Shown: in pieces, positions 17,511 through 42,668 of the stretch
Layout: every line of letters begins with the position of its first letter
Numbering within the stretch: position 1 is the stretch's first letter
IMG/VR virus record: IMGVR_UViG_3300027963_000114
Span: 1 to 44,859 of that record
Source of the DNA: a virus
DNA length: 44,859 nt
Direction: 5' to 3' (one strand)
Made by a program: the position numbers and the translations under genes
The notes under the pieces: model-generated
Database searches by the model: none
Seen by the model: only the letters and a program-made list of their open reading frames with translations
Told to the model about the DNA's origin: nothing

Positions 17511-17528
17511 AATAATATGATTTATTTG

Positions 17529-17599
17529 AGGTCGGAGATAGATTTCCACTACCGTAAGAGACTTTGCAGGTCTCCGCCTAAATGCTCGGCCACCCGACC
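17529..17599 (-). tRNA. tRNA-Cys (GCA)
   Basis: Acceptor GGTCGGG/TCCGACC, anticodon stem GAGAC/GTCTC around CTGCAAA, giving anticodon GCA. The discriminator base is U, a Cys identity element. The D-stem has three G-C pairs. The T-stem GGTAG/CTATC carries a non-consensus loop TGGAAAT instead of TTCGAAT. CCA is not encoded. Confidence 0.85.
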
Positions 17600-20255: not shown

Positions 20256-21518
20256 TTACAACTTTTCATCGATATTTGGCATGTACACTCTTATGATATC
20301 AACCAACTCTTTTTTAATCTCTGGTGTGATATTTTTTGTTCTATGTTGATTAACCAAAGTCATAAACTCACTTACTACTTTATTAAACTTAAACGTCTCA
20401 GTAAATCCAAATACTTTTTTTTTAAATGGTTCAATATCAATTACATCATCACCTTCTCTTGACATCCATTCCTTAAATCGATTTATAAACCTTTTAATAC
20501 CAGAGATATTTTGGTCTGACCAAGACCCACCATCAAAGTAGTGACCAATGAACATCATATAGAATCTCAATTCATCTGAATCATAATCATCTGGGTTAAT
20601 AACATTACCTTTGGTCTTACTCATTTTTTCACCATTGTTCAATATCATACCTTGGTGAATTACTTTCTTAAATGGTTCTTCTTCACTAACCACACCAATA
20701 TCATACAAGAACATATTAATAAATCTTGCATAAATCAAGTGCATACAAGCGTGTTCCGATCCACCAACATAAACATCAACTTGTTTATATTTTTCCTTAG
20801 AACAGATTTCAGTTTCGTTATTAGGATCACAATATCTAATAAAGTAAAATGAACTATCTACAAAGGTATCCAATGTATCTGTTTCACCATCAACTGGGAT
20901 TGGACAACCCCAACTTCTTTGACGAGACACACACCAATCATGCAAGTTTTCCAACCACATTCTTTGTGCATTTATGGTTGACTTTGGATAATCTATCCAA
21001 TCCAAGTTTTTAATCAAACGTTCTTTATAATCTGTAATCTTAAAATACCACTGATTCATTGACTTTATTTCTACTTTAGTAGAACATCTTTCGCAGTGGT
21101 CATCTTTTACTTGTTCACGGGCCAATACAGTTTCACAAGATGAGCACCAGTTAACTTCACCATCTTTCTTATAAGCCAATCCGTGTTCTTTCAATTTAGT
21201 AAATATCCACTGTGTCCACTTTTGATAAGAAGGATCAGATGTAATCAACAATTCTTGATATTGTGTATTCATCTTACTCATTTGTGAACGAAAACGGTCT
21301 ATGTTCTCATAGGTAACATCTCTTGGATCTCGACCAACTTTCTTAGCATAGTTTTCAGCTGGCAATCCAAAAGCATCATAACCAAATGGTTGGAATACTT
21401 CCTCACCTCGATATCTAAAGTATCGACAGTAAGAGTCCATAATTGCGTAATTATAAAAGTGTCCAATATGCAATCCGTTACCGGATGGATAGGGGAACAT
21501 AGGTGTAATATATTTCAT
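20256..21518 (-). CDS. leuS: Minimal leucyl-tRNA synthetase lacking the editing domain
   Basis: 420 residues, about half of the usual 800-880. It has PYPSG and HIGH (residues 17-20), a Cys4 zinc module (WCSSCETV, DHCERC), WCVSRQRSWGCPIPV, FVDSSFYF, VGGSEHACMHLIYARF and KMSKTKG in place of KMSKS. The CP1 editing domain normally inserted before the DW-VSRQR segment is absent: AQRMWLENLHDW joins directly. The anticodon-binding helix bundle is shortened and the C-terminal domain is missing. No remnant of the missing parts lies nearby, so this is a compact form, not a frameshift. It charges tRNA-Leu; proofreading should be absent. Expression appears to be controlled by the leader at 21543-21650. 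Confidence 0.92.
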   Translation of the reverse strand: MKYITPMFPYPSGNGLHIGHFYNYAIMDSYCRYFRYRGEEVFQPFGYDAFGLPAENYAKKVGRDPRDVTYENIDRFRSQMSKMNTQYQELLITSDPSYQKWTQWIFTKLKEHGLAYKKDGEVNWCSSCETVLAREQVKDDHCERCSTKVEIKSMNQWYFKITDYKERLIKNLDWIDYPKSTINAQRMWLENLHDWCVSRQRSWGCPIPVDGETDTLDTFVDSSFYFIRYCDPNNETEICSKEKYKQVDVYVGGSEHACMHLIYARFINMFLYDIGVVSEEEPFKKVIHQGMILNNGEKMSKTKGNVINPDDYDSDELRFYMMFIGHYFDGGSWSDQNISGIKRFINRFKEWMSREGDDVIDIEPFKKKVFGFTETFKFNKVVSEFMTLVNQHRTKNITPEIKKELVDIIRVYMPNIDEKL

Positions 21519-21542
21519 ATTCTTATTTTTATTTTTTAAACT

Positions 21543-21575
21543 AAAAAACCCTCAGTATTTACATACTGAGGGTTA
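21543..21575 (-). terminator. Attenuator terminator upstream of leuS
   Basis: On the minus strand AACCCTCAGTA pairs with TACTGAGGGTT, an 11-12 bp stem followed by a T-run, 25 bases before the leuS ATG. Its 5' arm can instead pair with an upstream TACTGAG at 21597-21603 (antiterminator). Confidence 0.88.
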
Positions 21576-21608
21576 GATTTTCATAGGCAAAATTCTCTCA
21601 GTACTCAG

Positions 21609-21650
21609 TTAGAGTAATAAGAGTAATAAAGATTTTGCGTTCTGTTTCAT
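21609..21650 (-). CDS. leuL: Leucine-rich leader peptide, 13 aa
   Basis: Encodes MKQNAKSLLLLLL then TAA. The last six codons are Leu (TTA TTA CTC TTA TTA CTC). The final Leu codons (TACTC, 21612-21616) can pair with GAGTA at 21602-21606, which overlaps the antiterminator strand TACTGAG. A ribosome stalled at Leu codons would cover the first arm and free the antiterminator; a ribosome reaching TAA would allow the terminator. This is the classical arrangement of leu/ilv operon attenuators. Confidence 0.85.
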   Translation of the reverse strand: MKQNAKSLLLLLL

Positions 21651-21664
21651 AGTTTTATATATTA

Positions 21665-21672
21665 CAAATATA
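21665..21672 (-). promoter_or_regulatory. -7 box (TATATTTG) for the leuL-leuS transcript
   Basis: Matches TAnnTTTG, 15 bases before the leader ATG. A TTTTG lies about 20 bases further upstream, at the position expected for the -33 element. Confidence 0.55.
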
Positions 21673-22302: not shown

Positions 22303-22305
22303 TTG

Positions 22306-22376
22306 TAGTCCCAAGTGGATTCGAACCACTATACTAACTTTAGAAGAGTTATGTCCTTCCATTGAACGATGGGACC
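22306..22376 (-). tRNA. tRNA-Arg (TCT)
   Basis: Standard cloverleaf: acceptor GGTCCCA/TGGGACT, D-stem GTTC/GGAC with loop AATGGAA, anticodon stem TAACT/AGTTA around CTTCTAA, T-arm AGTGG-TTCGAAT-CCACT. The anticodon TCT reads AGA, which is abundant in these AT-rich genes. Discriminator A; CCA is not encoded. Confidence 0.93.
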
Positions 22377-40397: not shown

Positions 40398-42668
40398 TTA
40401 TATAAAATTATAGTAATTAAATAGGTTCACTGACGGATATGGAGCAGATGAACCAGTTGCACCAATTGGTCCAGATGATCCAGTTGGTCCTTGACGACCT
40501 TGATAACCCTGCGGGCCCTGTACACCTTGAGATCCTTGTGAATAGACACCCAAGAATAATTGATGATTATCTGTAAAGTTACTATACCCAACACCAGTTG
40601 CTGTTATCAAAGTAACCGGTACATTCCAATATGAAGTTGTAGATCCAGCATTTATATTACTAGGAGTTCCACTAATAGTCCATCGTTGATAATTACTAGA
40701 CACATTTCTATCTTGAACATAAAGTTGTTGATTTTGAGCCAATAATGACAAAATTATATCCACATCATTTCCACCCTCATCATAATGTGAAATACTTATT
40801 TGTGTTGCACTTCTTTGTGTGGTATTATTCCAAATAATAGATCCATCACCTGGATACCCAGATGTTGATGCCGTATTCGCCAAATAGTTAAATAGATTGG
40901 TTGAGGCACCATCTGGTCCTTGAGGTCCAGTAACTCCTTGTGGACCTGCATCTCCATTTATTATAATAATTACAGAACATATATCATTAGTAACAAAAGA
41001 AGTAATTCCACCATTTGTCAAGACTAATCCAGTAAATAGGTAATCACCACTAGAATAAGTAATATTTGTGAACTGATAAACATCAACCTTCGGAGACCCG
41101 TTTGTATTGTAAGTTATTGTTAAATATCCACTTTTGCCCAAAATACTTGAGAAGTAATCAGAAATATTAGCACCATCATATGTAGTAGGATTAAGTTTAA
41201 GATTGTACATGAATTCTCCATAATTATAAGTAAAATTACCAGAAGTTGTCGAAGTACCAATTCCTTGATAATTGTATATAAATCCACCTTTATCACCTTG
41301 TGAACCAGTTAATCCCAATCCCTGAGGACCTTGATCACCTTGTGTACCAGTTGCTCCTTGAAATCCTTGGTCACCTTGTGGTCCTTGGTCGCCTTGAAAT
41401 CCTTGGTCGCCTTGTGGTCCTTGGTCACCTTGTGGTCCTTGGTCACCTTGTGGTCCTTGGTCACCTTGTGGTCCTTGGTCACCTTGAGGGCCTTGGTCGC
41501 CTTGAAATCCTTGGTCACCTTGTGGTCCTTGGTCACCTTGTGGACCAGTTGCTCCTTGAAAACCTTGTGGACCTTGTGGTCCTTCTATACCAATTGATAA
41601 AGGTATAAATATTATATCGTGGCCATTACTAAATGAATATCCACCAGTCACATATGTAACTGGTATTGAAACATAATCATTAGGTATAATTGTAGGTGTA
41701 CCACTTACGGTCCATTTTTGAAAGTTATTAGAATTATTTTCATCTTGTATAATTATACTATCACCAGTTTTAATCAATGCTAAGAATACATCAATATCTA
41801 CATTATCTCTTGTTAAATGGTCAACATATAATATAGTTGAATTTATCTGTGTTGCATTATTCCACATAATTTGTTTAGCACCAGGAGGTGATGTTTGTGA
41901 ATTCGTTCTTGCATTATATTTATAATATGAAACTGATATACCATTCTGACCTTGTGGACCAGTTGCTCCTTGAAATCCTTGATCACCTTGTGTACCAGTT
42001 GCTCCTTGAAATCCTTGGTCACCTTGTGGTCCCTGGTCACCTTGAAATCCTTGGTCACCTTGAAATCCTTGGTCACCTTGAAATCCTTGGTCACCTTGGA
42101 AGCCTTGGTCACCTTGGAAGCCTTGGTCACCTTGTGGTCCCTGGTCACCTTGTGGTCCCTGGTCACCTTGTGGTCCCTGGTCACCTTGTGGTCCCTGGTC
42201 ACCTTGGAAGCCTTGGTCGCCTTGAAATCCTTGGTCACCTTGTGGTCCCTGGTCACCTTGTGGTCCCTGGTCACCTTGAAATCCTTGGTCACCTTGTGGT
42301 CCGGTTGGACCTTGTCCACCCGACACAGTTCCACCTCCTGGTGGACCAGCTGGTCCTTGATATCCTTGGTCACCTTGTGGACCTTGGTCACCTTGAAATC
42401 CTTGGTCACCTTGTGGACCAGTTAATCCCTGACCCTGATATCCTTGAAATCCTTGAGATCCAGTTGTTCCTTTTAATCCTTGAGCACCTTGTGGTCCTTG
42501 TGATCCTTGAGTACCTTGTGGTCCTTGGTTACCTTGATAACCCTGTGGACCTTGTGATATTAAAACATTACCATTACCATCATAAAATACACCATCTTTA
42601 TATTGAACTATCCTTGGAAATAGTTCCGGTACAATCTGTTGAATTTTATATTTATTCTGCTTAGCCAC
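40398..42668 (-). CDS. Collagen-like tail fibre protein, 756 aa (GTG start)
   Basis: The N-terminal 38 residues ([20 protein letters not shown]) are non-collagenous. Long Gly-X-Y arrays follow, mostly GPQGDQ and GFQGDQ, in two main blocks broken by three beta-rich domains. Two of these (ending [15 protein letters not shown] and [13 protein letters not shown]) are clear homologues. The C-terminus ends [12 protein letters not shown]. The triple-helical arrays should form an elongated trimeric stalk. GTG is the only plausible start. Confidence 0.9.
41330..41580. repeat. Tandem 9/18-bp repeats coding Gly-X-Y, block 1
   Basis: Repeated units such as CCTTGGTCACCTTGTGGT on the plus strand, coding GPQGDQ or GFQGDQ on the minus strand. 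In-frame slippage could change stalk length. Confidence 0.85.
41950..42440. repeat. Tandem 9/18-bp repeats coding Gly-X-Y, block 2
   Basis: Same unit type as block 1, with variants that differ at synonymous sites (TCC, AAA and GAAG forms), suggesting local duplication. A short [10 protein letters not shown] break interrupts it. Confidence 0.85.

Follow-up and report, generated by a model that had tools for sequence, protein, structure and literature searches.

The question raised by this locus is whether expression of a phage leucyl-tRNA synthetase gene, leuS, is tied to the supply of charged tRNA-Leu through a translated leader. The whole stretch of DNA analysed, referred to below as the window, is a 44,859-b IMG/VR virus record. 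A first-pass annotation had proposed that the DNA 5' of leuS is an attenuator of the leu/ilv type, in which shortage of charged tRNA-Leu would switch on the synthetase. We consider it very likely, on computation from the sequence and with no expression data, that the element is indeed a ribosome-mediated (leader-peptide) transcription attenuator of leuS. Below, we describe the anatomy of the leader, related elements in other huge phages, the mechanism that they suggest and the alternatives to it.

Anatomy of the leuS leader

The features of the locus, all of which lie on the minus strand, are as follows.

20256..21518, minus strand: leuS, encoding a 420-aa leucyl-tRNA synthetase with HIGH and KMSK motifs (Pfam PF00133/PF09334)
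21665..21672, minus strand: predicted -7 promoter box TATATTTG, Bacteroidota sigma-A type, TAnnTTTG (sequence)
21609..21650, minus strand: leader peptide ORF MKQNAKSLLLLLL, stop codon at 21611-21609 (sequence)
21587..21638, minus strand: region 1:2 hairpin, outer pairing GCAAAAU/AUUUUGC, inner pairing CUCUUA-UACUC/GAGUA-UGAGAG (RNA fold)
21603-21597, minus strand: region 2, UACUGAG (TACTGAG), pairing with CUCAGUA of the terminator 5' arm (sequence)
21564..21603, minus strand: antiterminator (2:3), UACUGAG-AGA-(A)-UUUU ... AAAA-UCU-CUCAGUA (nascent-RNA fold and position-dependent model)
21547..21574, minus strand: intrinsic terminator stem (3:4), AACCCTCAGTA-TGTAAA-TACTGAGGGTT (fold; also detected blind)
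21543..21548, minus strand: T-run of the terminator (sequence)

Read along the minus strand, the order is therefore TATATTTG, leader ORF, region 2, terminator and leuS, which starts at 21518, just past the terminator. The box lies ~15 nt 5' of the leader ATG; it is a predicted promoter, the activity of which has not been shown. TAnnTTTG is the flavobacterial promoter consensus (PMC9723704), and such a box also precedes most of the related leaders described below. The leader is encoded by ATG AAA CAG AAC GCA AAA TCT TTA TTA CTC TTA TTA CTC TAA, with six Leu codons in a row at 21629-21612. Three mutually exclusive RNA pairings can be drawn between the promoter box and leuS, the last of them being the intrinsic terminator.

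RNA folding gives the leader a minimum free energy of -36.3 kcal/mol (z = -5.4; 0 of 200 shuffles were equally stable) and recovers the GCAAAAU/AUUUUGC outer pairing, the UACUC/GAGUA leader hairpin and the terminator stem. The region 1:2 hairpin alone amounts to -15.7 kcal/mol and would mask region 2 when no ribosome occupies the leader. The 2:3 antiterminator is worth -8.4 kcal/mol before the 3' arm of the terminator exists, compared with -18.5 kcal/mol for the terminator itself. It is inferred that the antiterminator would need to act before the terminator is complete, which is the usual kinetic logic of attenuators. When a structural detector that is blind to composition was run on shuffled 44.9-kb windows, the chance expectation was 0.005 such arrangements per window, and a run of four identical residues within one was seen in none of 200 shuffles.

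Most of what the first-pass annotation had read here was confirmed. The promoter box, the leader peptide and the terminator with its T-run before leuS all stand, on the minus strand; the TACTC/GAGTA and outer GCAAAAT/ATTTTGC pairings are borne out by RNA folding; and the TACTGAG/CTCAGTA pairing of regions 2 and 3 also held, being longer than the 7 bp noted by virtue of AGA-AUUUU/AAAAUCU. Folding of the leader in its alternative states, proposed at that stage as a check, yielded all three structures.

The synthetase and the relatives of the window

The best PDB matches of the 420-aa product are LeuRS proteins; aligned with eight other phage LeuRS sequences, it shows 62-85% identity. It has about half the usual length of a LeuRS, and the CP1 editing insertion is apparently absent, as inferred from length and motif order. 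The same seems to be true of a phage LeuRS family of ~406-421 aa (window 20256-21518 plus relatives L003-L036). A short LeuRS, complete in length and sharing 62% identity with the phage protein, is encoded by a 26-kb contig from a bacterial assembly labelled Microvirga soli (L180, NZ_JAERQE010000055.1); possibly this contig is itself phage. When genome contigs were scanned using the LeuRS alignment, the hits were for the most part ordinary bacterial LeuRS.

Proteins of the window match those of several huge phages across dozens of genes, in partly collinear order. The relatives sharing proteins with it are LR745206.1 (634,780 b), G001 (476 kb), G004 (a 507,910-b IMG/VR contig), G002 and G003. 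Phages of >634 kb were predicted to infect Bacteroidetes in a 2020 study of huge phages (PMC7162821). The window also encodes tRNA-Arg (22305-22376) and tRNA-Cys (17528-17599), at neither of which was an attenuator detected; the tRNA-Arg has a TAnnTTTG box of its own. A long collagen-like repeat protein (GPQGDQGFQ...) is encoded at 40398-42668.

Leaders at leuS in other phages

A leader belonging to leuS itself was found at three of the ~35 phage leuS loci fetched, the window included; the other two are in different huge phages. In LR745206.1 (L011), a Leu-rich leader, MINNNVNILLLPLT, lies 5' of leuS and is followed by GUACUGAG and by AACCCUCGGUAC...GAGGGUU. Folding shows that this locus forms all three alternative structures, the region 2/3 pair being GUACUGAG/CUCGGUAC, and a small gene sits between the terminator and leuS. 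In G004 (L012), the Leu-rich leader is MITTMNTNLLLLADS and the terminator lies 44 nt 5' of leuS. The attenuation logic has thus been kept, with changed sequence, at leuS of two other huge phages, and leuS occupies a different place in each genome. Elsewhere, leuS is found within larger units: in G001 and G008 it closes a tRNA array, and the leader in front of that array names Leu; in LR756501.1, five tRNA-Leu genes and then a LeuRS-like gene come after a leader rich in Leu.

The first-pass annotation had named loss of the leader in homologous phages as an observation that would refute its reading. Some related leuS genes do lack one: in G002/L004, L005 and L033 no leader is present at leuS, and a TAnnTTTG box stands directly 5' of the gene instead. 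Leaders were missing from most of the first leuS relatives, and refutation on this ground was considered; it was overturned by LR745206, by a wider scan and by the occurrence of leuS inside attenuated tRNA operons.

Leaders at tRNA arrays

A whole-genome scan of LR745206.1 for a box, a short ORF and a terminator in succession revealed leaders whose residues match the tRNAs downstream, and leaders of these types are found again in G001, G002, G003, G004, G006 and G008. The recurrent types are H/K/F/W, S/R, Y/E/G(A), N/L/M/T/V/I(R), P/Q/D and Q, with diverged peptides. For example, HKNFSKSHKWF precedes tRNA-His/Phe/Trp/Lys and PQPQDQDP precedes tRNA-Pro/Asp/Gln. The leuS leader of the window, which the first-pass annotation treated by itself, would thus belong to a regulon whose main targets are tRNA arrays.

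Regions 2 and 3 co-vary. In the N/L/M (NLMTVI) group the pairs are CTGAGGGTT/AACCCTCAG, GAATCTGGGTT/AACCCAGATTC and TGGACAGGATT/AATCCTGTTCA, and in the HKFW orthologs GTTCGG/CCGAAC is replaced by the compensatory TATCGGGGTT/AACCCCGATA. The compensatory change that the earlier reading predicted for related phages is therefore found, in L011 and in both of these ortholog sets. Pairing of region 2 with upstream RNA in the absence of a ribosome is possible in many of the tRNA-array leaders.

Because the structural detector itself requires region 2, its output cannot be used without circularity to ask how often region 2 occurs by chance. We therefore took 30 terminators solely because they lie 0-125 nt 5' of a tRNA in seven related contigs, ignoring region 2 and composition. 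These sites are L043-L045 and L037 (LR745206.1), L065-L068 (G001), L075-L081 (G004), L092-L095 (G002), L100 (G003), L103 and L105 (G008) and L108 (G006). A region-2 match and a matching leader ORF were both present at 30/30; among 441 other terminators, 33% had a region-2 match. With the leader taken as the longest non-tRNA ORF, the fraction of sensing residues cognate to the downstream tRNAs was 0.564, compared with 0.169 on permutation, and none of 200,000 permutations gave a value as high. It should be noted that this pooled value is too strong, since leaders orthologous between phages are not independent; tests within a genome, where the leaders are not orthologous, are safer. With a slightly different set of 24 leaders, the true assignment of leaders to tRNAs was the best of 720 permutations in LR745206, of 120 in G001, of 120 in G004, of 24 in G002 and of 6 in G008.

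Several other features of these arrays may be recorded. Attenuators can occur in tandem, a P/Q/D leader opening the array and a further leader with a run of Gln (e.g. MRTTTQYQQQQQINPTD) preceding internal tRNA-Gln genes (L045:14703 and LR745206 407720; G001 271214/272015; G002 171205/172591; G004 391714/394022). In the 735-kb LR756501.1 (L267), of which 41 kb was read, matching leaders stand before tRNA groups for H/K/F/W/S, Leu x5 + LeuRS, I/C/D/N/Y and M/Q; the 636-kb LR756504.1 has a tRNA cluster without a leader in the stretch examined. A shared GGGA...CTTTTTAATATATA-like stretch lies shortly 5' of several leader ATGs (L044:44600-44700, L043:48300-48380, L045:14600-14700 and L003 near 1740) and might be a phage promoter or a 5' UTR element. 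Promoter-like TAnnTTTG boxes are also found before the tRNA-Met that precedes the HKFW attenuator (L004:8452-8660, two in tandem; L009:7400-7700). Degenerate DNA patterns for two of the leaders matched just three contigs and one contig, respectively.

Leaders at synthetase genes

Leaders naming the enzyme's own amino acid also precede stand-alone synthetase genes, the identities of which were checked with NCBIfam. Those at valS are NLVVVNVSV and NNVVVVNRNPV; that at ileS is MNFN(T/S)IIIIR, in two phages; hisS has NTHFHFHF, aspS has NDD or ADD (two cases) and asnS has NNRN. No relatives of the IleRS were found in the viral scan. Further cases occur in LR756501.1 and other contigs. Some leaders are weak: that of hisS in LR745206 has one His, that of aspS in L176 has one Asp, and that of valS in L260 has a poor T-run. 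Synthetases within tRNA operons also fit their leader, with LysRS and HisRS behind H/K/F/W, SerRS behind S/R, ProRS behind P/D/Q, ThrRS and AsnRS behind N/L/M/T/V/I, and a GlyRS-like protein behind Y/E/G/A or I/G/A.

Ribosome position and the proposed mechanism

In a simple position model, a translating ribosome is taken to cover the RNA as far as 12 nt beyond the beginning of the A-site codon. With the ribosome at the sensing codons, the modelled antiterminator is free to form, and in most leaders this is lost soon after the ribosome has passed them; the modelled switch falls close to where those codons end. Cognate codons make up 56% of the positions that permit antitermination, compared with 17% elsewhere in the same leaders (Fisher p = 9e-28). 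In the window, this crude footprint leaves the antiterminator about half-formed when the ribosome is at the stop codon, and the OFF state would therefore rely on the 1:2 hairpin after ribosome release.

The scheme proposed for the window is as follows. RNA polymerase would start at the TATATTTG promoter and a ribosome would translate MKQNAKSLLLLLL. With ample Leu-tRNA, the ribosome would reach the stop codon, partly cover region 2 and then be released, so that region 1 would capture region 2; region 3 would then pair with region 4 and transcription would halt 5' of leuS. With Leu-tRNA in short supply, the ribosome would stall on the Leu codons, 2:3 pairing would preclude the terminator and leuS would be transcribed. 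Equivalent switches carrying other codons would, in the related huge phages, turn on the tRNAs and synthetases whose codons stall ribosomes. The control must act on transcription, because its targets include tRNAs.

The sequence itself establishes the anatomy, the mutually exclusive pairings, their conservation with changed sequence and the match of codon to target. The window meets the tests of an attenuator in having a promoter box, a run of cognate codons, an intrinsic terminator and competing 1:2 and 2:3 pairings, and the further test of compensatory change that keeps the pairings is met in its relatives. The leu/ilv-type reading is thereby supported by conserved logic, cognate codons, the link between codons and tRNAs and the RNA model, without evidence from expression. 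The causal step from stalling to antitermination during infection is inferred and not shown, as is the identity of the trigger as amino-acid shortage or loss of tRNA. Defences that cut tRNAs are a natural candidate trigger, given the established ability of phage tRNAs to counter such defences (PMC10264068, PMC11555353).

Alternative explanations

It could be argued that the leader governs translation of leuS, through ribosome delivery or reinitiation, and that the hairpin merely ends upstream transcription. Reinitiation from leader ORFs can boost translation of the next gene (PMC4833913), and only a short distance separates leader and leuS in the window. However, the same element fronts tRNA arrays, where there is nothing to translate; the 5' arm of the terminator is the pairing partner of region 2, and a T-run follows each hairpin; and in L011 a small gene separates the terminator from leuS. 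We regard this explanation as very improbable.

There is still less room for the other two. T-boxes control many bacterial aminoacyl-tRNA synthetase genes, and a T-box, or another riboswitch binding tRNA or a metabolite directly, might regulate leuS; but the leader codons track the target gene at many loci, which a T-box does not need. An Rfam search of the window gave no T-box and no amino-acid operon leader family (e.g. the Leu leader) at gathering score, the sole match being a tRNA, and a T-box identity was dropped for want of a match. Finally, a Leu run might arise by chance in AT-rich DNA beside the ordinary terminator of an upstream gene, given that TTA is common in AT-rich genomes and terminators are frequent. 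Against this, the promoter box separates the upstream region from the leader, shuffled windows almost never give such a detection, the leader is kept before leuS at different loci in other genomes, and cognate matching extends over the 30 tRNA-proximal leaders. Both possibilities can be set aside with near certainty, and leader-peptide attenuation remains the preferred reading.

Relation to known systems and significance

In E. coli, the leu, ilv, trp, his and thr operons and pheST use leader-peptide attenuators, pheST being the known example for a synthetase. The phage elements resemble these in having a short ORF with regulatory codons, exclusive 1:2, 2:3 and 3:4 pairings, an intrinsic terminator and a cognate gene downstream. 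They differ in being phage-borne, in targeting phage synthetase genes and mostly tRNA arrays, in that the array leaders mix codons for several amino acids and in that region 2 is often inside the leader ORF. Leader-peptide attenuation has also been suspected for amino-acid biosynthesis operons of Flavobacterium (PMC9723704), which share the TAnnTTTG promoter with the phage elements and come from the phylum predicted to host phages of >634 kb (PMC7162821), although there it is host biosynthesis operons, and not tRNA or phage genes, that are controlled. T-boxes sense uncharged tRNA and act at a terminator, as the phage leader would, but the phage leader would do its sensing through translation of codons.

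The first-pass annotation knew of no phage gene described as subject to peptide-mediated attenuation. In the full-text literature that we searched, which leaves out most subscription-journal papers and preprints, there was no report of phage tRNA arrays or synthetase genes under such control. The huge-phage paper describes many tRNAs and synthetases (PMC7162821), and neither 'attenuat' nor 'leader peptide' occurs in its text. Phage tRNAs, the same target genes as here, replace host tRNAs cut by defence systems (PMC10264068, PMC11555353); a term search of these two papers did not find attenuation of arrays, and one of them reports a strong phage tRNA promoter (PMC11555353).

A bolder reading, which we think likely although it too lacks expression data, is that huge Bacteroidota phages possess a genome-wide regulon that senses shortage. 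Transfer RNAs and synthetases would be grouped behind leaders whose codons name the amino acids of the group, and stalling on any one of these would switch on the matching genes, giving a codon-specific response to starvation, host shutdown or tRNA-cutting defences; leuS of the window would be one member. To explain why phages carry dozens of tRNAs, codon supply and evasion of tRNA-cutting defences have chiefly been proposed (PMC10264068, PMC11555353). The elements described here suggest a testable answer, namely that ribosomes stalling at particular codons gate the expression of phage tRNAs, the leader spelling out which amino acids are sensed. If this is correct, the reach of leader-peptide attenuation goes beyond amino-acid biosynthesis and takes in tRNA genes and viruses, and leaders of mixed codons are natural sensors of several amino acids. 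From its leaders one could also predict the tRNAs whose loss a phage anticipates, and the suggestion is that giant phages may make tRNAs solely when ribosomes run short of them.
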